Of a stretch of 64,000 nt of DNA, positions 32,220 to 47,507 are shown in pieces; the first letter of the stretch is position 1; each line of letters starts with the position of its first letter. The notes below the pieces were generated by a model. That model did no database searches. It worked only from the letters and a program-made list of their open reading frames with translations, and was not told the DNA's origin. The position numbers and the translations under genes were made by a program. Source of the stretch: an uncultured Fibrobacter sp. (GTDB lineage Bacteria; Fibrobacterota; Fibrobacteria; Fibrobacterales; Fibrobacteraceae); the NCBI RefSeq assembly GCF_947305105.1, contig NZ_CAMZCS010000002.1, positions 1 through 64,000 of the forward strand, read 5' to 3'.

Positions 32220-32304
32220 CCATTCGGGTTTTGTTTACCCTGATGGGCAAAACAAGAGAATATGAAATTTTTTATGTGTACTATGATTGGAGAAACGTAG
32301 CAGT

Positions 32305-33822
32305 ATGACCCTAAAGAAACTGGTCCTAATTACGGCCGGGGCTTTGCTTCTTTCCGGAACCGCCATGGCAAGGAATATCAACGTGCCTGGTGATTACTCA
32401 AAGATTGCAGATGCCCTTGGAAATGCGGATGCCGGGGATACCATCCTTGTCAAACGTGGAACTTACAACGAAAACATCACCTTGATCATGGGTGTTGTGC
32501 TCAAGGGCGAGGATCCGCTCACTACCATCATCGATGGTGGCCGCCGCGGTCCGACCGTCATGGGTACTTCGGGTGCTGAAATGTCTCACTTCACGGTGAA
32601 GAACGGTATCGAAGGTATCCTTTGCGAGAACGCAGCTCCCTACATCCACCACTGCTATGTGCTGGATAACAAGGCAACGGGTATTGGCGCGTTCATTTCG
32701 CTCCCTTGGCTCCGTAACAACGTGGTGTACGGCAACCGCTGGTCCGGCATCCTCGCATGGGGTGCTAAGTCGCTGGATGCGTTCATTGAACACAACGTTG
32801 TCCTGCGCAACGGCTACTCTGGCCTTGCACTGAAGGGACCGACGAACGTGGTCGCCCGCAACAACATCTTCATGGAGAACCACTACTACGGTGTGTTCGC
32901 CGACCCGGCCGCCGGCCAGACGAAGGTGGAGTACAACAACATTTACAAGAACTACTATCCGTTCAACCAGTTCATCAAGGTGAACCGCACGAACGTTTCG
33001 CTCGACCCGAAGTTCATCAACCACTCGCTGTCGAAGCCGAACTTCTACTGCCAGTCCACCTCGCCGATGCTCAAGCGCGGCAAGGGCAAGGCCGACATCG
33101 GCCTTACCGCTGCTGAAGTGGCCAAGGACGAAGAACAAGTCGAAGAGACTCGTAATCCGGATACGGATGCCGACGGCCTCTGCGATCCGTGGGTTTCCGA
33201 AGAAGGCGTCTCTGACAAGTACGCTTCCGTTTGCACCGGCCTGGATAACTGCCCGGAAGAAGCCGAAGACTTCGATGGTTACCAGGACGACGATGGCTGC
33301 CCGGATCCTGACAACGACCGCGACGGTCTTTGCGATCCGTGGGTCGAAGCCAAGGGTATGCTCTCCAACTTCGCTCACGTCTGTAAGGGTGTTGACCTCT
33401 GCCCGGAACAGGCTGAAACCCAGAACGGCTACAAGGACGAAGATGGTTGCCCGGACGAAGTTCCGCAGCCGCCTAAGAAAGTGTTCGTCCTCGAAGGTGT
33501 GAACTTTGAATCTGGCAAGGCTACCATCACTCAGGACTCTTACGTGTCCCTGATGAAGGTTGTCGATATCATGGAAACCTTTGCTGAAACGACATTCGAA
33601 ATTGTCGGCCACACGGATAACGTGGGTATCAAGGAAAAGAACATGCAGCTCTCCGCTGACCGCGCCGCTGCCGTGAAGAACTTCCTTGTTGAAAAAGGTA
33701 TCGATGAGAGCCGTATGACTACGAGTGGCAAGGGTGATTCCCAGCCGGTCGCTTCCAACAAAACCCCTGAAGGGCGTGCGCAGAATCGTCGTATCGAATT
33801 CATCCGCACGGACATTAAGTAA
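32305..33822 (+). CDS. beta-helix / TSP3-like / OmpA-family peptidoglycan-binding protein
   Basis: The 505-residue exported protein has a signal peptide (LVLITAGALLLSGTAMA). An N-terminal right-handed beta-helix-like domain (about 25-255, pectate-lyase or NosD type, NNVVYGNRWSGILAWG) follows. Then come two calcium-type thrombospondin-3-like repeats (about 270-385: DTDADGLCDPW and DNDRDGLCDPW, each with DNCPE/DLCPE and DDDGCPD/DEDGCPD). The C-terminal OmpA domain (about 395-505) has NFESGKATI, VGHTDNVG and NRRIEF, so it should bind peptidoglycan non-covalently. It begins a run of envelope genes, and a possible ribosome-binding site (GGAG) is distant. Coupled to the next gene by a 9-base gap. 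Confidence 0.85.
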   Translation: MTLKKLVLITAGALLLSGTAMARNINVPGDYSKIADALGNADAGDTILVKRGTYNENITLIMGVVLKGEDPLTTIIDGGRRGPTVMGTSGAEMSHFTVKNGIEGILCENAAPYIHHCYVLDNKATGIGAFISLPWLRNNVVYGNRWSGILAWGAKSLDAFIEHNVVLRNGYSGLALKGPTNVVARNNIFMENHYYGVFADPAAGQTKVEYNNIYKNYYPFNQFIKVNRTNVSLDPKFINHSLSKPNFYCQSTSPMLKRGKGKADIGLTAAEVAKDEEQVEETRNPDTDADGLCDPWVSEEGVSDKYASVCTGLDNCPEEAEDFDGYQDDDGCPDPDNDRDGLCDPWVEAKGMLSNFAHVCKGVDLCPEQAETQNGYKDEDGCPDEVPQPPKKVFVLEGVNFESGKATITQDSYVSLMKVVDIMETFAETTFEIVGHTDNVGIKEKNMQLSADRAAAVKNFLVEKGIDESRMTTSGKGDSQPVASNKTPEGRAQNRRIEFIRTDIK

Positions 33823-33833
33823 AGGAGTAGGTG

Positions 33834-36215
33834 ATGATGCATACTAGTTTCATCAAAAAAGCAACAGTCTTTGGACTCGCTTTGGCCAGCACTTCTTTGT
33901 TCGCCGAGGCAACCTACTCTCCGCACAAGTACCAGCAGAATGACTGGTTCGCTGAATTCGGTGGTAACACTGCCATGTACGTGAACCCGGCTGGTATTTC
34001 TGAGACGGATCAGTTTGAATTGAGCTTTGGCTTCTTCAGTTCCATTAGTGGCGAAGCTAGCCAGGAATACGTCAGCTTTACCTATCCCGTTGATTACAAG
34101 CACACGTGGGGATTCTCCTTCTTCGAAAACGGTGCTTCTATCGATGGTGGTCAGTCCTATACCGAAAACGCATTCATGTTGGGTTATGCATACAACTTAA
34201 TCCACTGCATCGCTTTGGGTATCGACATCTCGGTTTTGCAGATTAACCAGTTCGATGAGAACAAGCACATCTCTCTTGGCTCTGACATCGGTATCAACTG
34301 GAATCCGATGGCCAACTCCAGGTTTGGTTACCTGTTGATTGGTGTTGCCTTGCAGAACATTGTTCAGCCGGGTATCAGCACCGAGGAAGGCTCTAGTTCC
34401 TATTCGTTCGTTGCTCCGGGATTCTTCGGCAGCGATCGTGACGATGCGTACAACATTCCTTCCAACTTGAACTTCTCCTTGTTCTATCGCGGTCTCAACC
34501 GCGCTCTGGAAGCCAAGGTTGAACTTTCCTTGATCGACGTGTTCCACTCCGACAGCGAAGGTGGCGACGGTATGAACCTCGAAGAAAGCTTCACGGTGAC
34601 ATACTTCCTCTCTCCGCACCTCGGTGTTCGTCTCCGCTTCACCAAGGAAGGTTACCCGGTTGCGGGCGCTACGGTTAACGTCAAGGATGTCAGCATCTTC
34701 CGTTACCTCGCTCTTGACCTTGAAATGTCTCACGATGACCTCTATGCCAAGAAGAACCGTGGCTTCATCTGGGCTGTCAAGCTCACTAGCCGCTTCGGTG
34801 ACACTCGCGAAGAGAAGATTGGTGAAGAACGTTATCGTCGCCTGAAGATCGAACCTGAAAACGACTACCGTGCTGCTATGCGCCTGTACTTGAACCGTCA
34901 GTTCCTCGAAGCCGCTTATGCCTTCGGTAAGGTCCAGACCAAGTACCCCGCATTCCACTTGGTTGACCAGGCTGCGTTCTACAAGGCAAAGTCCTTCGAA
35001 AACCTCCGTATGCACAAGGCTGCTAAGGCCGTGTACGAAGACGCTATCAAGCGCTATCCGCAGAGTGACCAGCGCGCCAAGTACCACTTCCAGTTGATGA
35101 ACATCGACTATAAGGAAGGCAAGTACACGGAAGCTATGACCAAGTATCAGAATATCGCCCAGAAGTTCGGCGAAAGCGACGTGAAGGCTGACGCTGACTA
35201 CGTTGCCGGCCAGATCAAGTTCGAACAGGGCCTCTATCAGGAAGCTGTCGACCTGCTCGCCGCCATCCTTCCGGGTAACGCCAACTACTTCTACGCCCGT
35301 TACACCATGGGTATCGCCTACAGCCGTATGGGCAAGTGGGACGAAGCCGAAAACTGCTTCCGCGATATTACGGAACAGCCGGTTTCCAACCAGTCCGAAC
35401 GCGACCTGCAGGATGCCGCTAAGGTGAAGCTCGGTCACATCTACTTCTCTGGTGAGAAGCCGGACATTGCTCAGGCCGCTCAGATGTACGGTCAGGTGCA
35501 GCCTGGTTCCCCGGTGTATGACGAAGCTATGCTCGGTATTGCATGGTCCTTCCTCAAGGTTAACAAGCCGAACGAAGCCATGAAGCCGGCCCAGTGGATT
35601 ATCAGCAACCTTCCGGAATCCTTCCTGGTTTCCGAAGCCTACCTGGTGATTGGTTACTGCCATTTCATGAAGAAGGATTACAACAATGCTGCTAAGGCCC
35701 TTGAACAGGCTGAAAAGCGTACCGAACAGCCGGTTGTGACTGTCGCTGCCCGCGATAGCGCCCGCCAGGCTTACGATGCGATGCAGGATGAATTTGACTC
35801 CGTGCAGGTCAAGGCTTTGGATCTTGCCCGTCAGCTCCCCACTCCGCGTGTGGAGAAGAAGCGCGAAGCTCTGCGTCCGTCCTTCGACAAGGCAAACAAG
35901 ACAATTGAAGATTACGCTGCATTTACCCAGAAGTCCATTCAGAGTGACCGCTTCGAATCCAACCGTAAGCGTATCTTGGACGACGCGGGCTTCACCTTGG
36001 CTACTGTGAAGACCAAGATGAGCCAGGGCAGCGCTTCCTCTGAAGCTGCTCAGGAACTCGAATCGTTGGAAGACGATCTTGACGTGGGCGGTGATGATAT
36101 GGGTGGTTCGTCGGATGCTGGTAGCAGCAGCGAAGCTCCTGCACCTGCTGGTGGCGACGAAAGCGCTGGCGGTTCTTCTGATGAACTCGGCGATGACCTC
36201 GGAGACGACTTCTAG
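33834..36215 (+). CDS. outer-membrane barrel (PorV/PorQ-like) fused to TPR repeats
   Basis: AAGGAG six bases before ATG 33834 sets the start, giving about 793 residues. After a signal peptide (ATVFGLALASTSLFAE), residues about 30-330 look like a PorV/PorQ-type barrel: FGGNTAMYVNPAGI near the start and many amphipathic strands. From about 345 to 640 there are tetratricopeptide repeats (for example AYAFGKVQTKYPAFHLVDQAAFYKAKSF), then a helical part and an acidic Ser/Gly tail (DDLDVGGDDMGG). A barrel joined to periplasmic TPRs would tie the outer membrane to a scaffold. Next gene follows after about 50 bases. Confidence 0.75.
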   Translation: MMHTSFIKKATVFGLALASTSLFAEATYSPHKYQQNDWFAEFGGNTAMYVNPAGISETDQFELSFGFFSSISGEASQEYVSFTYPVDYKHTWGFSFFENGASIDGGQSYTENAFMLGYAYNLIHCIALGIDISVLQINQFDENKHISLGSDIGINWNPMANSRFGYLLIGVALQNIVQPGISTEEGSSSYSFVAPGFFGSDRDDAYNIPSNLNFSLFYRGLNRALEAKVELSLIDVFHSDSEGGDGMNLEESFTVTYFLSPHLGVRLRFTKEGYPVAGATVNVKDVSIFRYLALDLEMSHDDLYAKKNRGFIWAVKLTSRFGDTREEKIGEERYRRLKIEPENDYRAAMRLYLNRQFLEAAYAFGKVQTKYPAFHLVDQAAFYKAKSFENLRMHKAAKAVYEDAIKRYPQSDQRAKYHFQLMNIDYKEGKYTEAMTKYQNIAQKFGESDVKADADYVAGQIKFEQGLYQEAVDLLAAILPGNANYFYARYTMGIAYSRMGKWDEAENCFRDITEQPVSNQSERDLQDAAKVKLGHIYFSGEKPDIAQAAQMYGQVQPGSPVYDEAMLGIAWSFLKVNKPNEAMKPAQWIISNLPESFLVSEAYLVIGYCHFMKKDYNNAAKALEQAEKRTEQPVVTVAARDSARQAYDAMQDEFDSVQVKALDLARQLPTPRVEKKREALRPSFDKANKTIEDYAAFTQKSIQSDRFESNRKRILDDAGFTLATVKTKMSQGSASSEAAQELESLEDDLDVGGDDMGGSSDAGSSSEAPAPAGGDESAGGSSDELGDDLGDDF

Positions 36216-36264: not shown

Positions 36265-39200
36265 ATGAAAAAACTCTTGCTTGTGAGCGCATTGATTTGT
36301 GCTCTAGTCGGAAATGCGTTTGCTGCATCCGACCCCTGTAAAGACAAAGTCGCCGAAGCCAAGAAGTTGGCGGCAAAGTGCAAATCCTACAAGAAGGGCA
36401 GCTCTGAATTCAAGAAGTGCGCAAGCTCTTACAAGGTCCTCAAGAACCAGGCCGACCAGGCTTGCCGTTCCGGTGGCCTCGACGAAAAGGGCATGCGTCA
36501 GGCTATTGCCCAGTGGGAAAAGCAGGTGAACAACTGTAAGGGTAAGCAGAACAAGCGTTGCGCTTCTGCACTCCAGCAGTTAGGTCACTACCAGTTCCAG
36601 TTGGAAGAGAAACTCTTCCTCGATGCTCAGGGCCAGTACGAAGAAGATGTGGCCTGGTGCGCTGACCGTGATAACAAGCCGGCCAAGTGCGCGAACATCG
36701 ACCAGCTCCCGAAGGCAGAGCACTCCAAGTCTCTCGGCTACTTCCTCGAATACATCGACAAGTACCCGAAGGAAGACAAGACGCCGGTCGTGATGTACCA
36801 GGCGGCTGCCGTGCTCGAAGCTAGCGGCGAAGACGACAAGGCTTACCGCCTCCGTGAACGTCTCGTCAAGGGCTTCCCGGAAAACGGTCTCGTGCCGAAG
36901 GCCTGGCTCCGTATGGCTGAATACCACTTCATGAACCGCAAGTTCCGCGACGCTATCAACGCCTATAAGAAGGTGACTGGCTTCGAGAACCTCACGGGTA
37001 AGGAAGCTGCCTTGGCCATGTACCACTTGGCTGAATCTTACTATAACATTGCCGAATACGAAACGGCTGCTATCAAGTACTACGATTACATCATCGGTGC
37101 CGACAAGGGCAAATATCCGAACGACTTGCGCGCAGAAGCTATGGACTTCATGGCTGCCTCCTTCTCTGACTTGGAAGGTGGTGGTGTCCAGGAAGCTGAA
37201 GCTTTCTTGAAGGACAAGAAGGTTGCTTTCAAGGACTCTGTGTACTACCGTATCGGTATGAAGAACAAGGACCATGACCGTAACGAAGAAGCTGTCCAGT
37301 CCTTCAAGCGCTTGATGCAGATCAACCCGGACTACATCGACGCTCCGCTCGCCGATATCGCCATGGTTGAAATCTTCATCGTGCAGCAGAAGTTCGACGA
37401 AGCCCAGCAGCATCGTTATGTTGTTGTGAAGCGTTATGACCGCAACTCTTCTTGGTACAAGAAGAACCAGAAGTATCCTGAATCTGTGAAGAATGCTGAA
37501 CGTGCAATCCGTTCCGCTATGCTTGACATCCCGCAGTTCCACCATGCGCGTGCTGCCAAGCTCACTAAGGAAGGTGACCTGGAAGCCGGTAAGAAGCAGT
37601 ATGCCGAAGCCATCAAGGCTTACGAAGCATTCCTGAAGCGTTACGCCAAGGAACCGACCTGGGACGAATACAAGGTGCACATCAACTTGGCCCTCGTCTA
37701 CCAGGAAATGGGTCAGTTTGCTAACGCCGCCAAGATGTTCAACTGGATTGTCGATACCGATACTACCCGCTACGGCCGTCGCCCGATGGGCTCCGAAGCT
37801 CTCCTGAAGAAGGAAGAAGCTGGTTACAACGCCGTGCTCATGATGGATCAGTCTCGTGAAAACGCCAAGAAGAACAAGTATGGCGACGATGCTGTCAAGG
37901 CTTACAAGTCCGAAGAAACCAAGGCTTACTTTGCTCAGGTTGACAAGTACATGAAGAAGTTTGGCAACAACAAGGAAGCTGCCGAACTTGCTTACAACGC
38001 TGCTATCGTCCACTATGACGCCAAGCAGTACAAGACTGCTGTGACGGTGCTCCGTGAACTTCGCCAGAAGTATCCGAACCACCAGTACATCTTGCTCATT
38101 AGCCGTATGCTTGCTCAGTCCTTGCTGGAATCCAACCAGCTCGACGAATCCTTGAAGGAATTCGAATGGCTCTACAAGCAGTATCACGATGTCAAGGCCA
38201 CCAGGAACGACTCCATGGCCAAGGAAATCGAAAAGGCTATCGCAGCTGTGCTCTTCCAGATGGCTGAACAGTCCGTGAAGAACGGCCAGTACGAAAAGGG
38301 TGCTCAGGCTTACTTGGCCCTCGTGAAGCGCTACCCGCTGGTCTCCTTCTCCGACAAGGCCGTGTTCGAAGCCGGTGCTGCTTACGAAAATGCCAAGCAG
38401 TACACCAAGGCTGCCGAGACCTTCATGATCTTGCCCAAGCAGTACTCTAGCTCTCCGTTGACCATCAAGGGCGTGCTCCGTGCCGCATCCGCTTACAAGA
38501 AGGACAACAAGCCGCGTGAAGCTGCTACGACGTTCCTCTTCATCACGAACCAGTTCCCGCAGGATTCCATGGCCTTCCAGGCAATCGGTTTTGCCGCCCA
38601 GACCTACGACTCCATCCCGGATAAGAAGCAGGCCGCTATCACCTTCGAACTCGCTTACAAGCGTTATCCGAAGAACGAAAAGACTCCGGCATTCCTCTAT
38701 AGCGCATGCTTGAGCTATGACGAAGCCAAGATGACCGACGAAGCTATCCGCTGCTCCAAGGACCTCGTTCGCGACTACCCGAAGAGCACCTATGCTCTTG
38801 ACGCTGCGTTCAGCATTCCGCTGGCCTACGCCAACGCCAAGAAGTGGGACGAAGCTGCTAAGGAATACCACAACTTCATCAGGATGTACACCGAAGACAA
38901 GGAAAAGCTGATTGCTGCCTACATCGGTGCCGCCCGTGCCTACATGGAACTCAAGGAAGAAGACAAGGCTGTCGAAGACTACCGCAAGACGCTGGAAGCC
39001 TACGACAAGTACGGTTTGCAGATCAAGAACGCCGACCCGGGCATTCCGGCCGAAGCGGCATTCTACCTCGGCGAACATGAATTCCGCAAGATGGAACCGT
39101 ATGTGCTGAAGGGTAAGGAAAAGGACAAGGCCAAGACCATCAAGACCTTGGTTGAAATCCTCCAGAAGGCCATGGGCCACTACTCCAAGTCTGCAGCCTA

Positions 39201-40020
39201 CGCTTCTGAAAAGTGGACCTTCCGTGCCACCAACAAGATGGGTATGCTCTTCGTGACGATGGCCGCCAAGATCCGCGAACAGGAACTGAACGGCAAGAAG
39301 GAAGAAGAACGTTTTGCTGAACGTATCACTGTTGTGCAGCAGCTCCCGAGCTACTACGAACAGGCTCGTCCGATCTTCCAGAAGAACATCGACCTTGCTC
39401 GTGACCAGGGCTTCTACAACCAAGACGTGATCGAGGCTGAAGAAGGTTATATCGAAATGTACTACCAGGGCTGCGCCGTGTTCGTCGAAGTCGCTGATGC
39501 ATTCGCTAACTCTCCGCTGCCTGACTCTGCCGCTATCGTGAAGGAATACGTGGAATACGAAGGTGCTGTCAAGGAAGACGCTATCGAAATGGCTCACGAA
39601 GACCTTGAAGCCTACCGCGAAGCCCTGAACGAAAAGTCTGAAGGTGCCAAGCAGCTTGCTATCCCGCAGTGCGCTACGGGTATCAAGGCCTCTGCTCACT
39701 ATGGTATCGATAACCAGTGGACCGCTAAGTTGTTCGAAACCTTGAAGTCTCTCGACGAGACCAACGAGGCTAACAACACCAAGATCGAGAAGTTCGACCC
39801 GTCTACGCTGTTCAGCGACCCGTCTTACTTCAAGACCAAGGCTCGTCTGGAACAGATTGCCAAGTCCGAAGTCATGACTCCGGAAGAGCAGCTCAACACC
39901 TACCGCGACATCATCAAGGATGCCAAGGCTGAGAACGAAAAGCTGAAGGCCGAACTCGCTAGCTTGAAGAAGCAGCTTGCTCCGGCTCCGGCTCCCGCAA
40001 CCTCTCCGGCTGGATACTAG
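36265..40020 (+). CDS. very long periplasmic TPR scaffold protein
   Basis: The 1251-residue exported protein has a signal peptide (LLLVSALICALVGNAFA) and a Cys-containing N-terminal helical region. It then has a long series of tetratricopeptide repeats from about 155 to 950, with YPKNEKTPAFLYSACLSY- and AAIKYYDYIIGA-type units. The last part is helical (about 960-1235) with a Lys/Glu coiled coil and an Ala/Pro tail. It has no catalytic motif. It likely forms a superhelical scaffold for protein contacts in the periplasm. Directly upstream of tolQ, separated by a terminator; AGGTGG precedes the ATG. Confidence 0.8.
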   Translation: MKKLLLVSALICALVGNAFAASDPCKDKVAEAKKLAAKCKSYKKGSSEFKKCASSYKVLKNQADQACRSGGLDEKGMRQAIAQWEKQVNNCKGKQNKRCASALQQLGHYQFQLEEKLFLDAQGQYEEDVAWCADRDNKPAKCANIDQLPKAEHSKSLGYFLEYIDKYPKEDKTPVVMYQAAAVLEASGEDDKAYRLRERLVKGFPENGLVPKAWLRMAEYHFMNRKFRDAINAYKKVTGFENLTGKEAALAMYHLAESYYNIAEYETAAIKYYDYIIGADKGKYPNDLRAEAMDFMAASFSDLEGGGVQEAEAFLKDKKVAFKDSVYYRIGMKNKDHDRNEEAVQSFKRLMQINPDYIDAPLADIAMVEIFIVQQKFDEAQQHRYVVVKRYDRNSSWYKKNQKYPESVKNAERAIRSAMLDIPQFHHARAAKLTKEGDLEAGKKQYAEAIKAYEAFLKRYAKEPTWDEYKVHINLALVYQEMGQFANAAKMFNWIVDTDTTRYGRRPMGSEALLKKEEAGYNAVLMMDQSRENAKKNKYGDDAVKAYKSEETKAYFAQVDKYMKKFGNNKEAAELAYNAAIVHYDAKQYKTAVTVLRELRQKYPNHQYILLISRMLAQSLLESNQLDESLKEFEWLYKQYHDVKATRNDSMAKEIEKAIAAVLFQMAEQSVKNGQYEKGAQAYLALVKRYPLVSFSDKAVFEAGAAYENAKQYTKAAETFMILPKQYSSSPLTIKGVLRAASAYKKDNKPREAATTFLFITNQFPQDSMAFQAIGFAAQTYDSIPDKKQAAITFELAYKRYPKNEKTPAFLYSACLSYDEAKMTDEAIRCSKDLVRDYPKSTYALDAAFSIPLAYANAKKWDEAAKEYHNFIRMYTEDKEKLIAAYIGAARAYMELKEEDKAVEDYRKTLEAYDKYGLQIKNADPGIPAEAAFYLGEHEFRKMEPYVLKGKEKDKAKTIKTLVEILQKAMGHYSKSAAYASEKWTFRATNKMGMLFVTMAAKIREQELNGKKEEERFAERITVVQQLPSYYEQARPIFQKNIDLARDQGFYNQDVIEAEEGYIEMYYQGCAVFVEVADAFANSPLPDSAAIVKEYVEYEGAVKEDAIEMAHEDLEAYREALNEKSEGAKQLAIPQCATGIKASAHYGIDNQWTAKLFETLKSLDETNEANNTKIEKFDPSTLFSDPSYFKTKARLEQIAKSEVMTPEEQLNTYRDIIKDAKAENEKLKAELASLKKQLAPAPAPATSPAGY

Positions 40021-40209: not shown

Positions 40210-40830
40210 ATGTCTAAAATGCTTGAATCTTTCAGCCCTGATGCAGATGGTTTCCAGTTCATGTGGATCATCTTGATCGTTTTCATGATCGGTCTTGGTT
40301 TCTCTATTGAACGTATCGTTTACATTATGCTCAAGAGCTCTAGCGGCCGTGCCCGCTTCCTCGCTGATTTCGGCAAGCTCATCTCTTCTCAGCAGTTTGA
40401 CCAGGCTCTGAGCCTCGCCAACGCTACCAACCTCCCGATTGCCCGCGTTATGGCCGCCATCGTTGGTGCCAAGAACCAGGGCCGCGACGGCATGCAGGCC
40501 GCTTGCGACGCCGTGTTCCTGACCGAAGCTCCGCGTCTCACTCGTTACGTCTCCATCATCTCCGTTATGGCTTCTATCTCCACGTTGCTCGGACTTATGG
40601 GTACGATTTACGGTCTGATCTTCACATTCGACGCTGTTGCTAACAAGCCGGCTGCTGAACGTCCGAAGGCTCTTGCTGACGGTATCGCTATCGCTATGGG
40701 TACTACGCTCCTCGGACTTCTCTCCGCCGTGCCTCTCCTGGTGATCGTCGGTATCCTCAACATGAACTCTGAACGTTTGATTCAGGAAATGGAAGAAAAG
40801 GGCCTCAAGATTATCAACTCCCTGTCGTAA
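40210..40830 (+). CDS. MotA/TolQ/ExbB proton-channel protein
   Basis: The 206-residue inner-membrane protein has the three-helix TolQ/ExbB plan: helix 1 at about 16-40, a cytoplasmic loop, helix 2 near 110-135 with the conserved GLMGTIYGLI motif, and helix 3 near 160-180 (MGTTLLGLLSAVPLLVIVG). It would form the pentameric proton channel around ExbD/TolR subunits. Genes for two ExbD/TolR-like proteins and a TonB/AgmX-like protein follow, so it powers that complex. AAAGGAG lies upstream of the ATG. Whether it belongs with Tol, Exb or gliding-motor channels cannot be decided without phylogeny. Confidence 0.9.
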   Translation: MSKMLESFSPDADGFQFMWIILIVFMIGLGFSIERIVYIMLKSSSGRARFLADFGKLISSQQFDQALSLANATNLPIARVMAAIVGAKNQGRDGMQAACDAVFLTEAPRLTRYVSIISVMASISTLLGLMGTIYGLIFTFDAVANKPAAERPKALADGIAIAMGTTLLGLLSAVPLLVIVGILNMNSERLIQEMEEKGLKIINSLS

Positions 40831-40872: not shown

Positions 40873-41757
40873 ATGGCAAAAGAAATCAAGAAGCCGAAAA
40901 AGCCAGAAGAACCGGACCTGTTGCCGGCGATGGGCTTGTTCACGATTCTGATTCCTATGCTGCTGTCCATGACGGCGTTCCAGAAGCTCGCCATCGTCGA
41001 AGTCAACCTGCCTGAGCGCAGCAACATGATTATGGACGATACGCCTCCCGAACCCGACCAGCAGGCATTGAATCTGTCGTTGGCTGTTACCACCGATTAC
41101 TTGGTAATCGGCGCACGTGGCGGTTTCCAGCCGAACGTGTACTTCAAGGAAATGTGGACTTTCCGTTGTAAGTCCGATGCTAAGCTCATTACCTACGCTC
41201 CGGAAGACGTGAAGTCCGTCGTTGAAGGCGGTCACGGCCCGAAGTGCCAGGACGGTTCTGAAATGGATGTCGAAAAGTATATCTACGACATCGAAACTAT
41301 CGAACTGTGGGCTATCCAAAAAGAATCCGAAGAAGATCCGGGTCGCGTGATTTGGGGCATGTATTCGTCTCAGGGCGAAGGCAGGCCGGATAGCGTTTAC
41401 CTCGACGGTGCAAACAACTTCCTCGCCCTTCCTGGCGAAGGCCCGCTCGGCTTGCAGAAGCCGGCTGCTCTGAAGTTGCCGAGTGCCGGTACTCGCGTAA
41501 GCACGCTTTCCGAGAACTCTGAACGCGCTCTGAAGCCCGATGCCGCCGCAAGCAACATCATTTATGCGCTCTCCGCATACGATGTGATTGCGAAGGATCT
41601 GATTGCTATCCATACGCAGTTCATCGACCTGGAAGACGTCGACAACATCATCATCGTGGCAAACGACGATACGCAGTTCGACAAGATCATCCAGCTCATG
41701 GACCGTGCTAAGGAAGCCGGTTTCACCAAGATCAACCTTGCGAAACTGGGAGGCTAA
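40873..41757 (+). CDS. ExbD/TolR-like protein with enlarged periplasmic domain and no membrane aspartate
   Basis: The 294-residue protein has the ExbD/TolR plan: a short cytoplasmic N terminus, one membrane helix (about 17-37), a VNLP junction and a periplasmic C-terminal domain. Aligning on VNLP, the position of the essential proton-carrying Asp of ExbD/TolR (D25 in E. coli ExbD) is occupied by Leu/Gly (LLPAMGLFTILIPM). The nearest Asp is at the membrane edge (PEEPD). About 150 residues are inserted in the periplasmic domain (about 75-225). It probably supports, rather than performs, proton transfer, with the next gene providing the Asp. Follows tolQ after 42 bases. Confidence 0.75.
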   Translation: MAKEIKKPKKPEEPDLLPAMGLFTILIPMLLSMTAFQKLAIVEVNLPERSNMIMDDTPPEPDQQALNLSLAVTTDYLVIGARGGFQPNVYFKEMWTFRCKSDAKLITYAPEDVKSVVEGGHGPKCQDGSEMDVEKYIYDIETIELWAIQKESEEDPGRVIWGMYSSQGEGRPDSVYLDGANNFLALPGEGPLGLQKPAALKLPSAGTRVSTLSENSERALKPDAAASNIIYALSAYDVIAKDLIAIHTQFIDLEDVDNIIIVANDDTQFDKIIQLMDRAKEAGFTKINLAKLGG

Positions 41758-41760
41758 TAC

Positions 41761-42252
41761 ATGAGAAAAACTCGTAAATATAGCGAAGATGTCCCGTTCT
41801 CATTGACATCCATGATGGACATGATGACCATCATCCTGGTGTTCATGATTAAGAACATCGATGCTGAAGGTCAGTTGGTGACCCAGGCCGAAAACCTGGT
41901 TCTGCCGAACTCTACCTCCAAGGTGCAGCCCAAGGAAGTGTCCCTGACGGTCGTGGTCGATAACGGCTTCGTGGTGGTTGACAACGAGAAGATCGTTCCC
42001 ACTGCAGACGTGCTCGCCCAGGATTCCCTCCTCGTTGAGAAGGTGAATGCCGTGCTTGAAGAACGTCGCCAGATTGAAAAGGATCATGCCTTGGCCAACA
42101 ACTTGCCGGCTGATGAAGCTGGACGCATCATTGTGCAGATTGACAAGAACATCCCGTACGATGCTATGTATAAGGTGATGGCCACTTGTGGCTTCTCCGG
42201 TTACACGAACATCGCATTTGCTGTGATGATGAAGAACGGCGGGGAGGAATAA
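41761..42252 (+). CDS. ExbD/TolR proton-channel subunit
   Basis: The 163-residue protein has the standard ExbD/TolR form: cytoplasmic start, one membrane helix at about 16-35 with the conserved Asp (SMMDMMTIILVFMI), then NLVLPNS and a periplasmic domain ending in the IPYDAMYKVMATC..GYTNIAFAV fold typical of the family. It should carry the proton-conducting Asp for the complex with TolQ. It starts four bases after the previous gene's stop and ends two bases before the next, so the three are translated together. Confidence 0.9.
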   Translation: MRKTRKYSEDVPFSLTSMMDMMTIILVFMIKNIDAEGQLVTQAENLVLPNSTSKVQPKEVSLTVVVDNGFVVVDNEKIVPTADVLAQDSLLVEKVNAVLEERRQIEKDHALANNLPADEAGRIIVQIDKNIPYDAMYKVMATCGFSGYTNIAFAVMMKNGGEE

Positions 42253-42254
42253 TT

Positions 42255-43184
42255 ATGGCTAAGAATGTTCCTATGGATCCGTTAGTCGCGTCTCTTATGC
42301 CGGAATCCGACAAGAAGATGGGCGCTATCGCCGGTATCTCCTTGGTCGTCGCTTTGGCAATTTGTATGTGGGCTTCCATGTACGAAGCAGTCGTTGACGA
42401 AGTCGTGTTCGAAGAATCCGCGAACGAAGATCTTTCCGCTTCTATGTCCATCGAACAGAAGGAAGAGAAGAAGGAAGAAAAGAAGAAAGAAGAACCCAAG
42501 AAGCCTCGTAAGAAGGCCGGTGGTGGCGGTAAGCCGCGTGGTAAGGGTCAGCCGAACGCTCCGCAGACTCGCGGCGTGCTCAAGCTCCTCACTGCTCAGA
42601 CCAAGAACGCCTCTGCTGCTGCTTACGACCTCATGAAGAACCAGAAGTTCACTAAGGACATCGATAAGGTTCTTAAGGACGTGGCTGGCCTCCAGACAAC
42701 GGGTAAGACCGTGCTCGGTGGTCGTCGCGGTAAGGCTGATGGCGGCTTCAACGAAGGTTATGCTGAAGGTGGTTCCGGTGGTATCGGTGACGGCCTTGCT
42801 GGCCTCCTTGGCGGTGGTGGCGGTGGTATCGCTACTAAGGCTAAGGGTTCCATCAAGACTCCGTCTGAACGCGATATCGACATGGGCGCCGGCGGTGGTT
42901 CCCGTTCCGCAGCGGACATCATGAAGGTCGTCCGTCAGCGTACTCCGGGTCTCCGTCACATCTATAACAAGTTCCTGAAGAAGAAACCGGGATTCCAGGG
43001 TAAGGTTACCTTGAAGTTCACGATTGCTCCGGGTGGCGAAGTTATCAGCATCTCCATTGCTTCTTCCACCACTGGTTACGGCGAATTTGATGGCGAAATC
43101 AAGAATGCCGTCAGCCGCTGGAAGTTCAGCAAGGTGAAGTCCGGTAACACGACGGTAACCATTCCGTTCACGTTCTCCGAATAA
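42255..43184 (+). CDS. TonB-family / AgmX-PglI C-terminal domain energy transducer
   Basis: GGGGAGG seven bases before ATG 42255 fixes the start and gives 309 residues. An N-terminal membrane helix (about 24-45) is followed by a Glu/Lys/Pro-rich linker. A Gly-rich stretch (about 170-205) leads to a C-terminal AgmX/PglI-TonB domain (about 225-309: RQRTPGLRHIYNKFL, GKVTLKFTIAPGGEV, RWKFSKVKSGNTTVTIPFTFSE). Such proteins transmit force or energy from the TolQ/ExbD channel to outer-membrane parts. In Myxococcus, GltG and GltJ have this C-terminal domain. Last gene of the tolQ set; terminator follows. Confidence 0.82.
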   Translation: MAKNVPMDPLVASLMPESDKKMGAIAGISLVVALAICMWASMYEAVVDEVVFEESANEDLSASMSIEQKEEKKEEKKKEEPKKPRKKAGGGGKPRGKGQPNAPQTRGVLKLLTAQTKNASAAAYDLMKNQKFTKDIDKVLKDVAGLQTTGKTVLGGRRGKADGGFNEGYAEGGSGGIGDGLAGLLGGGGGGIATKAKGSIKTPSERDIDMGAGGGSRSAADIMKVVRQRTPGLRHIYNKFLKKKPGFQGKVTLKFTIAPGGEVISISIASSTTGYGEFDGEIKNAVSRWKFSKVKSGNTTVTIPFTFSE

Positions 43185-43334: not shown

Positions 43335-44624
43335 ATGAATTTCAAATCAGCTGCTGCAGTAGGCATGGCATTCGGCATTCTAGGAGTCGGTTCTGCCTTT
43401 GCGACTTTTGCCCGTATTGAATCAATGGGCAAGAATACAACGTACATCATGGATGACGTGAGTATTTTCGACAATCCTGCAAACATCAATCTCTACCCGA
43501 ACTACTTGATTGGTGAATTCGGTCCTTATACGCAGGACGTGGAGCGTGGGACGAACCTCGATCCTCAGCATCCGAACTTTGGCGGTATCTTCTCGGTTTC
43601 TCTTGGTGACGAAGGTAATCCGGATCCGCGCCTTTCTATTGGTGGCTTGTTCGGGCGTACATCGCCTCTTGCCAAGTATCTGCCGACTCGCGTCATTGGT
43701 GACGCTGCCAACGACACATCCCTTGTCCCCGAAACAGTGACCAATTTCGATGGTTTCTTGGGCGGCTCGCTTTCTAACGGTGACGCTTGGGGCTTGCATG
43801 TGTACATCGCTCACCAGGACGGTGGCGACAAGGCCGAAGATGGTTCTTACCAGGTGGTCCCGAATGCGTTTGCTTCCATTGTGCAAGCGGATGCAGGTCT
43901 TAACCTCCAGTTCGGCAGCAGTATCGACTTCGAGTTCAGCTTCGGCCTCGCCCGTATCCAGTACGGCCCCGAACACAAGAATTTCTTTGACGATGGTGAC
44001 TTCTCTTTCCTCGCCAACTCCCGCGCGTTCTTTAGCCTCGACGCTATTGACGGCGAACTCGTGCCGGCGTTCTCCATGAACCTCATCCAGGCTCCGGGTA
44101 TTGATGACAAGCATGCTCAGGTCGGTCTCGGCATCAACGTTGCCTTGGACCGTGGCTTCTTCTGGTTGGGCGGCGACTTCATCTGGAACCAGCTGAAGGC
44201 CCACGACTGGACGTTCAATTATGCGACGGGCGAGAGCCTCTACGATTCCCAGAACGAGGAAGACCCGAACTGGGACAAGCGTAGCGACATCGGCGGCATG
44301 ATCAGCTTCGGTATCGAACGCAATATCTGGTGGGATTGGTTCGTCATCCGCGTTGGCGGCCAGAAGTCCATTCTCTACACGCAGTGCGACGTAGATTCGA
44401 AGAATACCGGCAACAACGGTATCTGCCGCGACAACGGCAACTTCTTTGCCACGAACCCGCTTGCTGATGGCACGGCGGACGACCATGTCGGCTTCGGCTT
44501 CGGTATCAACATCGAAGAGAAACTGAAGATCGACGTGACCGTTGCCGAAGACCTGCTCTTCCGCAACCCGTTCCAGGGCGAAGGCCGTCTCTTCTCCAGA
44601 ATTTCTGCAACTTACTCCTTCTAG
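43335..44624 (+). CDS. outer-membrane beta-barrel protein of unknown function
   Basis: The 429-residue protein has a signal peptide (VGMAFGILGVGSAFA) and a long run of amphipathic strands rich in aromatics and Gly through to the last strand ending in Phe (ISATYSF), the usual recognition end for BAM insertion. Conserved-looking openings are the TYIMDDVSIFDNPANINLYP segment, which resembles PorV/FadL-like barrels in having NPAN near the start. CAGGAG lies before the ATG. It directly follows the tolQ-exbD-tonB set but has its own terminator before and after, so it may be independently expressed. Membership of the same machine is inference. Confidence 0.75.
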   Translation: MNFKSAAAVGMAFGILGVGSAFATFARIESMGKNTTYIMDDVSIFDNPANINLYPNYLIGEFGPYTQDVERGTNLDPQHPNFGGIFSVSLGDEGNPDPRLSIGGLFGRTSPLAKYLPTRVIGDAANDTSLVPETVTNFDGFLGGSLSNGDAWGLHVYIAHQDGGDKAEDGSYQVVPNAFASIVQADAGLNLQFGSSIDFEFSFGLARIQYGPEHKNFFDDGDFSFLANSRAFFSLDAIDGELVPAFSMNLIQAPGIDDKHAQVGLGINVALDRGFFWLGGDFIWNQLKAHDWTFNYATGESLYDSQNEEDPNWDKRSDIGGMISFGIERNIWWDWFVIRVGGQKSILYTQCDVDSKNTGNNGICRDNGNFFATNPLADGTADDHVGFGFGINIEEKLKIDVTVAEDLLFRNPFQGEGRLFSRISATYSF

Positions 44625-45077: not shown

Positions 45078-45157
45078 CGCTCTCAGAGCACCTCAAATAA
45101 TTGTATTTTTCTTACATAGGATTATTTGGTTTTAACCCCTTAAAAAGGACCATAATT

Positions 45158-46180
45158 TTGTTCGGCTTATTTTCTTGTGATATAGGTATTGACCTGGGGA
45201 CCGCAAATACACTCGTTCATGTGGCGGGCCAAGGTATTGTCATCAACGAACCGACCGTGATTGCCGTAGATAGCAAGAACAATCGCGTCTCGGCTATCGG
45301 TTTCGAGGCCAAGAAGATGCTTGGCCGTACTCCCGGCGAAAGCCGCGCCGTGCGCCCGATGCGCGATGGCGTGATTGCCGATTTCGAATTGGTAGAAAAC
45401 CTCCTCCAGACGTTCATCAAGCGCGTGCAGAAATACCCGCTGTGGATGGTGAAACCTCGTGTGGTGGTCGGTGTTCCTTCGGGCATTACCGAGGTGGAAA
45501 AGCGTGCCGTGATTGACGCTGCACGCCAGGCCGGTGCCAAGGAAGTTCACCTGGTACACGAGCCGATGGCTGCTGCCGTGGGTATGGGAATCCCTGTGGA
45601 AGACCCTGTGGGCAACATGATTGTCGATATCGGCGGCGGTACGTCCGATATCGCGGTTATCGCGCTGAACGGCACTGTCTGCAACGCTTCTGTGCGTGTG
45701 GGCGGCGACGAGATGGACGAGGCCATTGTGCGCCACCTGCGCACCATGTACAACCTTTGCGTGGGCGAGAGCACTGCCGAACAGATCAAGATCCAGATTG
45801 GTTCTGCAAGCCCGCTCGAAGAAGAACTTTCCATGGAAGTCAAGGGACACGACTTTATCGCCGGTGTTCCGCGTACCATGACCATTACCAGCACCGAAAT
45901 CCGTTCCGCACTGGAAGAGCCGGTCACGGCCATTATCGAAGCCGTCAAGCAGGCTCTCAGCATGACTCCTCCCGAACTGTCTTCCGACATTTTGGACAAG
46001 GGAATCATCATGACGGGTGGTGCGTCCCAGTTGCGTGGCTTCGACGAACGTATCCGCAAGGAAACGGGCCTGTCTGTCAACGTGATTGATGACGCCCTCG
46101 TTTGTGTGTGCAAGGGTGCCGCCCGAATTCTCGAAGATCTCGACAAGTATCGTCCCGTCCTTATTGCTTCGTCCAACTAA
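45158..46180 (+). CDS. mreB: rod-shape-determining actin-like protein MreB
   Basis: The start is taken as TTG at 45158, eight bases after AAAGGA, giving 340 residues beginning (M)FGLFSCDIGIDLGTANTL, which matches MreB. An ATG 57 bases upstream would add a stretch absent from the family. Actin-type ATP sites are seen: GIDLGTANT (phosphate 1), DIGGGTSDIAVI (phosphate 2) and IMTGGASQLRG (adenosine). MreB filaments under the inner membrane guide elongasome cell-wall synthesis. mreC follows 21 bases later, then mreD, mrdA and rodA in one operon. Confidence 0.93.
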   Translation: MFGLFSCDIGIDLGTANTLVHVAGQGIVINEPTVIAVDSKNNRVSAIGFEAKKMLGRTPGESRAVRPMRDGVIADFELVENLLQTFIKRVQKYPLWMVKPRVVVGVPSGITEVEKRAVIDAARQAGAKEVHLVHEPMAAAVGMGIPVEDPVGNMIVDIGGGTSDIAVIALNGTVCNASVRVGGDEMDEAIVRHLRTMYNLCVGESTAEQIKIQIGSASPLEEELSMEVKGHDFIAGVPRTMTITSTEIRSALEEPVTAIIEAVKQALSMTPPELSSDILDKGIIMTGGASQLRGFDERIRKETGLSVNVIDDALVCVCKGAARILEDLDKYRPVLIASSN

Positions 46181-46201
46181 TTTCCGTTTGGTTGGAGTCT
46201 G

Positions 46202-47029
46202 ATGCGTAAGGCGTTCCGCTTTATTTTAGACTTGTTTACCCAAAGACATGGCATTGTTGCTTTTGTCTTTTTTATGCTGCTCGGTCTGCTTATGCGCGAG
46301 GCTCCCAACACGGTGCGCGAGAGCATCGTGGCGTCCGTGCTCGGTTCTGTGTTCTATCCGGCACAGGTAGCTCTGTCTTCGCTGAACGAATACCGTTCGG
46401 TTGTAGACGAAAACGAGCGGCTTAAAGAAGAAAATGCACGGCTCCGTCAGGAACTGTATCATGCCAGCGAGGGGCTTGAAGAACTGGCTAGACTCCATAC
46501 GCTGGTCCGGTTTGATGACAAGTGGGATTTCCCTATCGTGACGGCTCGCGTTGTCGGCCATAATCCGGGAAGGTTCCTCACGACACTTGTCGTGAACAGG
46601 GGAACTTACCATGGCATTAAGGAAAACATGCCTGTGTTTTCGACGAAAGGCCTGGTGGGCAAGATTACCAAGGCGTCGTTCACGCATTCCAGAGTCCAGC
46701 TGATTTCGGACCCTAACCTTAAGTTGTCTGTAATGGAGCGCCGCACCCGTGTGGTGGGCTTCCTCGAAAGCGCCGATGGTCACAAACTTTCGGCCATGGT
46801 GCCTACGCATGCCGGAGTCAAGGAGGGCGATACGCTGATTACCTCCGGCCTGGGCGGCATATTCCCGAAGGGCATCCCGGTGGGGCTCGTGAAAGATGTG
46901 AACAGGGCGGACCTTGACGTGATGCGCAAGCTTGACGTTACGCCGTTCCAGGATATTTCCATGCTCGAGGAAGTGTTCATTATGCAGAAGGATCCGGAAT
47001 GGGTCATTCAGGAGTTGCTGGATGAGTAA
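46202..47029 (+). CDS. mreC: rod-shape-determining protein MreC
   Basis: The 275-residue bitopic inner-membrane protein has a cytoplasmic basic start (RKAFRFILDLF), one membrane helix (about 15-35) and a periplasmic coiled coil (about 65-100). The beta-barrel-like MreC core includes ARVVGHNPGRFLTTLVVNRG and the hallmark LVGKIT...S.VQLISDPN. It bridges MreB to PBP2 and RodA and switches the elongasome on. A GGAG precedes the ATG. It overlaps mreD by eight bases. Confidence 0.93.
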   Translation: MRKAFRFILDLFTQRHGIVAFVFFMLLGLLMREAPNTVRESIVASVLGSVFYPAQVALSSLNEYRSVVDENERLKEENARLRQELYHASEGLEELARLHTLVRFDDKWDFPIVTARVVGHNPGRFLTTLVVNRGTYHGIKENMPVFSTKGLVGKITKASFTHSRVQLISDPNLKLSVMERRTRVVGFLESADGHKLSAMVPTHAGVKEGDTLITSGLGGIFPKGIPVGLVKDVNRADLDVMRKLDVTPFQDISMLEEVFIMQKDPEWVIQELLDE

Positions 47030-47507
47030 GTGGCTGAAGGCATTTGTGCTCTTTTTGCTGAGCTTTGTCCTGCAGACGACCGTTGCGGACTGGATCAGCA
47101 TGTTCGGCGTTTCTCCGGATTTTGTCATCATTTTTGTCGTTGCCGCAGCCATCAAGCGCGGTCCGGCTTCGGGATGTTTCTGGGGCTTCTTGGCGGGCTT
47201 TACGCAGGATGTCTACGCTCCGGTGGAATGGCTCGGGGCGCATGCTATATCGATGACCTTGATTGGATTCCTTGTCGGGCAACTCGAGGAACGCTTCCTT
47301 ACGCTCAATTTCCCGACCAAGGTCGGTGTGCTCGGGCTTGCCTTTTTCGTGTGCGACATGGCGTACTTCTTCTTTACTGGTCTAGAAGGGGAAGCTGTCA
47401 CGAACCTGTTCTTCAAGGAAACGTTGCCGGAATGCGCATACACGCTTTTTGTCGGTGCCTTGGTGTTCTACTTGAGTATGGGGAAACCGGCAAAGCATGC
47501 TAAATGA
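47022..47507 (+). CDS. mreD: rod-shape-determining protein MreD
   Basis: The start at 47022 overlaps the mreC end by eight bases; AGG sequence within mreC serves as binding site. The 161-residue product is a small polytopic membrane protein (four to five helices) with ADWISMFGVSPDFVIIFVV, the WGFLAGFTQDVYAP loop and an LGAHAISMTLIGFLVG helix, typical of MreD. It works with MreC in the elongasome membrane complex. It overlaps mrdA by 11 bases. Confidence 0.88.
   Translation: MSKWLKAFVLFLLSFVLQTTVADWISMFGVSPDFVIIFVVAAAIKRGPASGCFWGFLAGFTQDVYAPVEWLGAHAISMTLIGFLVGQLEERFLTLNFPTKVGVLGLAFFVCDMAYFFFTGLEGEAVTNLFFKETLPECAYTLFVGALVFYLSMGKPAKHAK

Follow-up and report, generated by a model that had tools for sequence, protein, structure and literature searches.

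A conserved ExbD-family subunit without the proton-binding Asp, encoded beside an Asp-bearing partner in Fibrobacterota

The ExbBD-TonB and TolQR-TolA motors are built from a TolQ/ExbB ring with both pore Thr, an axle of the ExbD fold and a TonB_C-type transducer; the axle is a homodimer with two Asp, and no second, Asp-less ExbD is involved. In most solved Ton/Tol motors these two Asp point opposite ways, one engaging a ring Thr and the other facing the cytoplasmic cavity (PMC12905483). In models of 5:2 motors, the two acids are taken to be equivalent and to alternate round the five-fold ring, and 36-degree steps were derived in a review from two alternating equivalent chains (PMC9389320). 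GldLM is likewise an asymmetric 5:2 motor, with two identical axle chains and no conclusive sequence homology to other motors (PMC9389320). Two different axle proteins meet a TolQ-like ring, as in the locus described here, in the TPH-vWA motors with heterologous pairs, but these are vWA proteins and each keeps its Asp (PMC12204202). In the Agl-Glt core complex (AglRQS/GltG) of Myxococcus xanthus, of which a Fibrobacteres member was already listed in 2011 (PMC3169522), one TolQ-like and two ExbD-like proteins are combined with an AgmX/PglI-type transducer and TPR partners. According to a review, the Asp is present in AglQ as well as in AglS (PMC9389320). The AglQ D28N substitution alone abolishes AglRQS proton conductance and function (PMC3858216), thus the loss of a single acid can be consequential in a motor with two ExbD proteins.

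We analysed a window of 64,000 nucleotides, the whole stretch taken from a contig of an uncultured Fibrobacter sp., in which TolQ, two ExbD proteins and an AgmX/PglI-domain transducer are present in one cluster, as in the Agl-Glt core complex. Unlike AglQ and AglS, however, the first of these ExbD proteins (ExbD1) never carries the Asp; in the window it also contains an insert, and the transducer lies far below the GltG equivalog cut-off. Literature searches found no earlier description of Asp-less ExbD pairs or of TolQ-TolR/ExbB-ExbD fusions.

Organization of the motor operon

ExbD1 (294 aa; 40873-41757, + strand) runs from an ATG at 40873 to a TAA that ends at 41757, exactly the limits given in the initial annotation, which had called it an ExbD/TolR-like subunit. 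The protein scores 36.8 bits against Pfam ExbD (PF02472; cut-off 25.4) and is therefore a genuine member of the ExbD superfamily, with orthologues across the phylum. Hydropathy and AF2 elements indicate one N-terminal TM helix followed by a periplasmic ExbD fold. By hydropathy and charge list, this single helix spans residues 16-37 (40918-40983, +) and contains no internal acidic residue; the AF2 model places it at residues 17-33, with low confidence in the TM region. Foldseek gave weak matches to TolR and ExbD (E 0.03-0.3). ExbD1 should be classed with a divergent subfamily of ExbD that lacks the Asp, in a variant 5:2-type motor, and not as a canonical ExbD/TolR.

The next gene, whose ATG stands at 41761, encodes ExbD2 (163 aa; 41761-42252, +; Pfam ExbD 56.9 bits). 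The Asp first noted there, in SMMDMM, was confirmed and is found in 111/111 ExbD2 proteins; by census and TM alignment, this residue, Asp20 (codon 41818-41820, +), is the sole TM acid of the ExbD1/ExbD2 pair. Upstream of ExbD1 lies the ring subunit, of the TolQ/ExbB/MotA family (40210-40830, +; Pfam MotA_ExbB 78.4 bits). Its pore residues Thr132 and Thr166 fall within conserved GT and TT motifs and are Thr in 127/127 and 126/126 phylum sequences, respectively; equated by motif, they would correspond to ExbB Thr148 and Thr181 (ExbB numbering from PMC12905483). Residue 125 of this TolQ (40582-40584) is Thr, as in TolQ of its class, and Pro in the canonical TolQ of the same genome.

Downstream of ExbD2, a TonB-like transducer (42255-43184, +) carries an AgmX/PglI C-terminal domain (NF033768, 81.8 bits; cut-off 40). 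Against the GltG and GltJ models it reached 60 bits (cut-off 650) and 36.7 bits (cut-off 450), so that by model score it is neither. Directly upstream of TolQ, a 1251-aa TPR protein (36265-40020, +) is conserved, with a homologue in this place in most phylum loci that are long enough; a 794-aa TPR protein (33831-36215, +) probably belongs to the same operon. An outer-membrane protein, weakly PopA-like (43335-44624, +; NF053618, 39.6 bits, below cut-off), is conserved downstream. The gene order TPR protein, TolQ, ExbD1, ExbD2, TonB-like transducer and outer-membrane protein is kept across the phylum, and ExbD1 adjoins ExbD2 wherever both are readable, most gaps being 2-8 nt. A different tandem ExbD pair, with the Asp kept in both members, is encoded at another locus (L202, 1489-2796, -).

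The proton-binding site within and beyond the phylum

In a gapless TM alignment, Gly21 of ExbD1 (codon 40933-40935, +) stands opposite the Asp of ExbD2 and of canonical ExbD. The proton-binding TM Asp, a hallmark of ExbD/TolR, is missing from ExbD1; the initial annotation had read this position as Leu or Gly, of which Gly stands and Leu does not. Its question whether the Asp is lost in all members across Fibrobacterota was answered in the affirmative by a census of the distinct ExbD1-type proteins that include the TM region: the site is G in 52, N in 41, S in 12, A in 4 and C in 3, and D or E in 0/112. Among representative proteins, the TM Asp occurs in 0/31 of the ExbD1 type versus 42/42 other ExbD (Fisher 2.6e-21, kinship ignored), and chance is therefore excluded. 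The remaining four ExbD of the same Fibrobacter genome have all kept the Asp (4/4). The Asp-less ExbD1 is thus real, conserved and unusual. A Pro has been gained in ExbD1 seven residues past the lost Asp.

ExbD1-like matches were obtained in 151/168 phylum genomes, some of them being paralogous exported proteins. When a tree was computed for 73 ExbD proteins with the Asp column left out, a single branch (98/94*) set all Asp-less proteins apart, and the Asp site changed state once; this tree has no root, and the exact place of the Vibrio rows, which sit on long branches, is unsure. The divergence of ExbD1 and that of ExbD2 are correlated (rho 0.73, 0/500 permutations as high), which shared descent alone could explain.

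Beyond the phylum, a scan of genome contigs for the ExbD1 type returned Fibrobacterota-type records alone, and a scan of viral contigs gave no matches to such systems. Among plasmids, a single relevant system turned up, carried by two plasmids of Vibrio alginolyticus. On pMBL287, a TolQ is encoded together with an ExbD1 whose site residue is Ser, an ExbD that has the Asp and another protein at the position otherwise taken by the transducer. The arrangement is therefore not confined to Fibrobacterota. The Vibrio ExbD1 is annotated as 'hypothetical protein' (Pfam ExbD 19.8 bits, below cut-off); since annotation pipelines can miss an Asp-less chain in this way, the class is probably under-recognised.

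The periplasmic insert, fusions and exported chains

The insert, announced as about 150 residues long, amounts to about 145 residues in the window ExbD1. In the AF2 model (m12182bf06873) and the alignment it covers about residues 84-232 (41122-41568, +), between beta2 and alpha1 of the ExbD fold, with a pLDDT mostly of 80-96; in other lineages it measures about 115-120 residues. A PDB fold search assigned it no known fold, returning weak ExbD/TolR and actin-like matches, none with E <= 0.001. The sister operons, types B and D from Chitinispirillia-like and Raymondbacteria genomes, encode ExbD1 proteins of 160-175 aa that have no insert and all carry Asn at the site. The insert was thus rejected as cause or companion of the Asp loss, because insert-free sister ExbD1 proteins also lack the Asp; the two are separate traits, the loss reaching further than the insert. 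In one type B operon (L170), a STAS-domain gene (2432-2749, +) lies between ExbD1 and ExbD2, and other type B loci have similar ExbD1-ExbD2 gaps of about 320 nt.

In 21/168 phylum genomes from 17 genera, a TolQ carries ExbD1 as a C-terminal fusion (L215-L233 and L175; for example L215, 1501-2805, -). The fusions measure 425-438 aa and contain no internal stops, and all those that were read have N or G at the site. Beside them, a separate 255-aa TolQ is encoded, and an Asp-bearing ExbD2 wherever the locus reaches that gene. The TolQ C-terminus and the ExbD N-terminus are both cytoplasmic, thus the fusion is topologically sensible. In its AF2 model (pTM 0.47), used for secondary structure and linker alone, the TolQ helices are followed by a linker modelled with low confidence (about 212-238) and by the ExbD1 TM helix at 239-260. 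Type C operons had been considered TtpC-like, an assignment that was dropped when their long TolQ turned out to be a TolQ-ExbD1 fusion. It is possible that the fused chain and the second, 255-aa TolQ form a hetero-pentameric ring; the fusion is no proof of a single ExbD1 per ring.

Exported Fibrobacter proteins join the ExbD1 periplasmic domain to an AgmX/TonB domain (L072-L074). Fibrobacter-family paralogues that contain the ExbD1 periplasmic domain, in many cases attached to a TonB-like domain, were found at L072 (3311-4708, -), L073 (2518-4029, +), L074 (2911-4881, +; additional Fib_succ_major domain), L075 (3131-3901, +) and L076 (3510-4922, -; zinc ribbon). At L235 (1230-2756, -), an exported-looking chain of 509 aa consists of an ExbD-like domain, an ExbD1 periplasmic domain with the insert and an AgmX/TonB domain, and has no ExbD-type TM helix. 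All together, the TolQ-ExbD1 and ExbD1-TonB-like fusions tie ExbD1 to both TolQ and a TonB-like transducer, and make it likely, though they do not prove, that ExbD1 acts in a shared complex with its motor partners.

A proposed one-acid motor and its alternatives

An asymmetric stator had been suggested at the outset. The loss of the Asp in all ExbD1, its retention in all ExbD2, the adjacency of the two genes, the intact TolQ Thr and the fusions agree with this suggestion, while the heterodimer itself, its stoichiometry, the proton path, the insert-transducer contact and the envelope role are what we infer. We consider it probable that the axle within a TolQ pentamer is an obligate heterodimer of ExbD1 and ExbD2 (TolQ5:ExbD1:ExbD2), with one proton-binding chain, and drives a Glt/Agl-like transducer. 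Such a motor would have one proton-binding Asp rather than two, and a 5:1:1 composition instead of 5:2 with identical chains. Protons would pass via ExbD2 Asp20 facing TolQ Thr132/Thr166, and the ExbD1 helix would act as a passive counter-helix setting the polarity of the pair, while the ExbD1 periplasmic domain and its insert would touch the AgmX/TonB-type transducer, which extends to the outer membrane. By the AglQ D28N result, the surviving acid must suffice in an ExbD1/ExbD2 motor. The simplest prediction for a single acid is that each ring subunit would see one proton event in a full turn, giving 72-degree steps, or that the motion would be a rocking one. That such 5:1:1 motors are widespread, using 5 and not 10 protons per turn in steps of 72 degrees, is a more tentative extension, which may well not hold; in some lineages a linker of ~27 residues would tie the passive chain covalently to the ring, and ring and axle may rock instead of rotating freely. 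A natural, conserved one-acid axle would make the two-acid assumption directly testable without dominant-negative artefacts, and the TolQ-ExbD1 fusion offers an intrinsic way to test free rotation and subunit number.

Alternatively, two homodimeric complexes might share TolQ, the ExbD2 homodimers being the motor and the ExbD1 homodimers a proton-dead plug, spacer or regulator. This reading can draw on AglQ, where Asp-to-Asn at the site kills proton conduction, and on the fact that the physical pairing of ExbD1 with ExbD2 is itself deduced from genes. However, the constant ExbD1-ExbD2 adjacency, the TolQ-ExbD1 fusion beside ExbD2 and the single L235 chain with two ExbD-type periplasmic domains all fit one complex better, and separate homodimers seem unlikely.

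We give still less credit to an ExbD1 that carries the proton via another acid, either Asp15 at the cytoplasmic edge or, in some lineages, a Glu near residue 35. Position 15 is indeed D in 106/112 and N in 6/112 census proteins, and Glu is present at position 35 in 10/31 representatives. Yet Asp15, the Asp of 'PEED', does not sit within the membrane helix, a placement that the initial annotation had held to be damaging: it lies six residues before the site, is Asn in 8/31 representatives and was rejected on the alignment as a relocated proton site, canonical ExbD with an intact TM Asp likewise having Asp or Asn as the usual residue at this position. Most ExbD1, that of the window included, lack the Glu. 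It is very improbable, finally, that the pair works in the manner of AglRQS, the known motor of M. xanthus with two ExbD proteins, and that the lost Asp matters little for the mechanism. Although the AgmX/PglI domain, the two ExbD, the TPR partners and the earlier listing of a Fibrobacteres core complex (Luciano 2011, PMC3169522) speak for the likeness, both AglQ and AglS have the Asp according to the review (PMC9389320), and complete replacement in 112 distinct ExbD1 with complete retention in the partners is not drift.

For the motor with a heterodimeric axle, gene order and one proteomic study suggest that its envelope role is probably that of a Glt/Agl-like surface machine. In F. succinogenes S85, FSU_2400-2403 (TolQ-like, ExbD, ExbD and TonB) were more abundant on cellulose, and cellodextrin uptake was proposed by the authors of that study (PMC6851124); judged by gene order, this cluster is likely the orthologue of the window operon. 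Directly upstream of the TPR genes, the window encodes a 511-aa protein (32287-33822) whose N-terminus resembles, by eye, a right-handed beta-helix and whose C-terminus resembles OmpA. MreB-, MreC- and MreD-like genes, also recognised by eye, lie downstream of the operon at 45101-47507.
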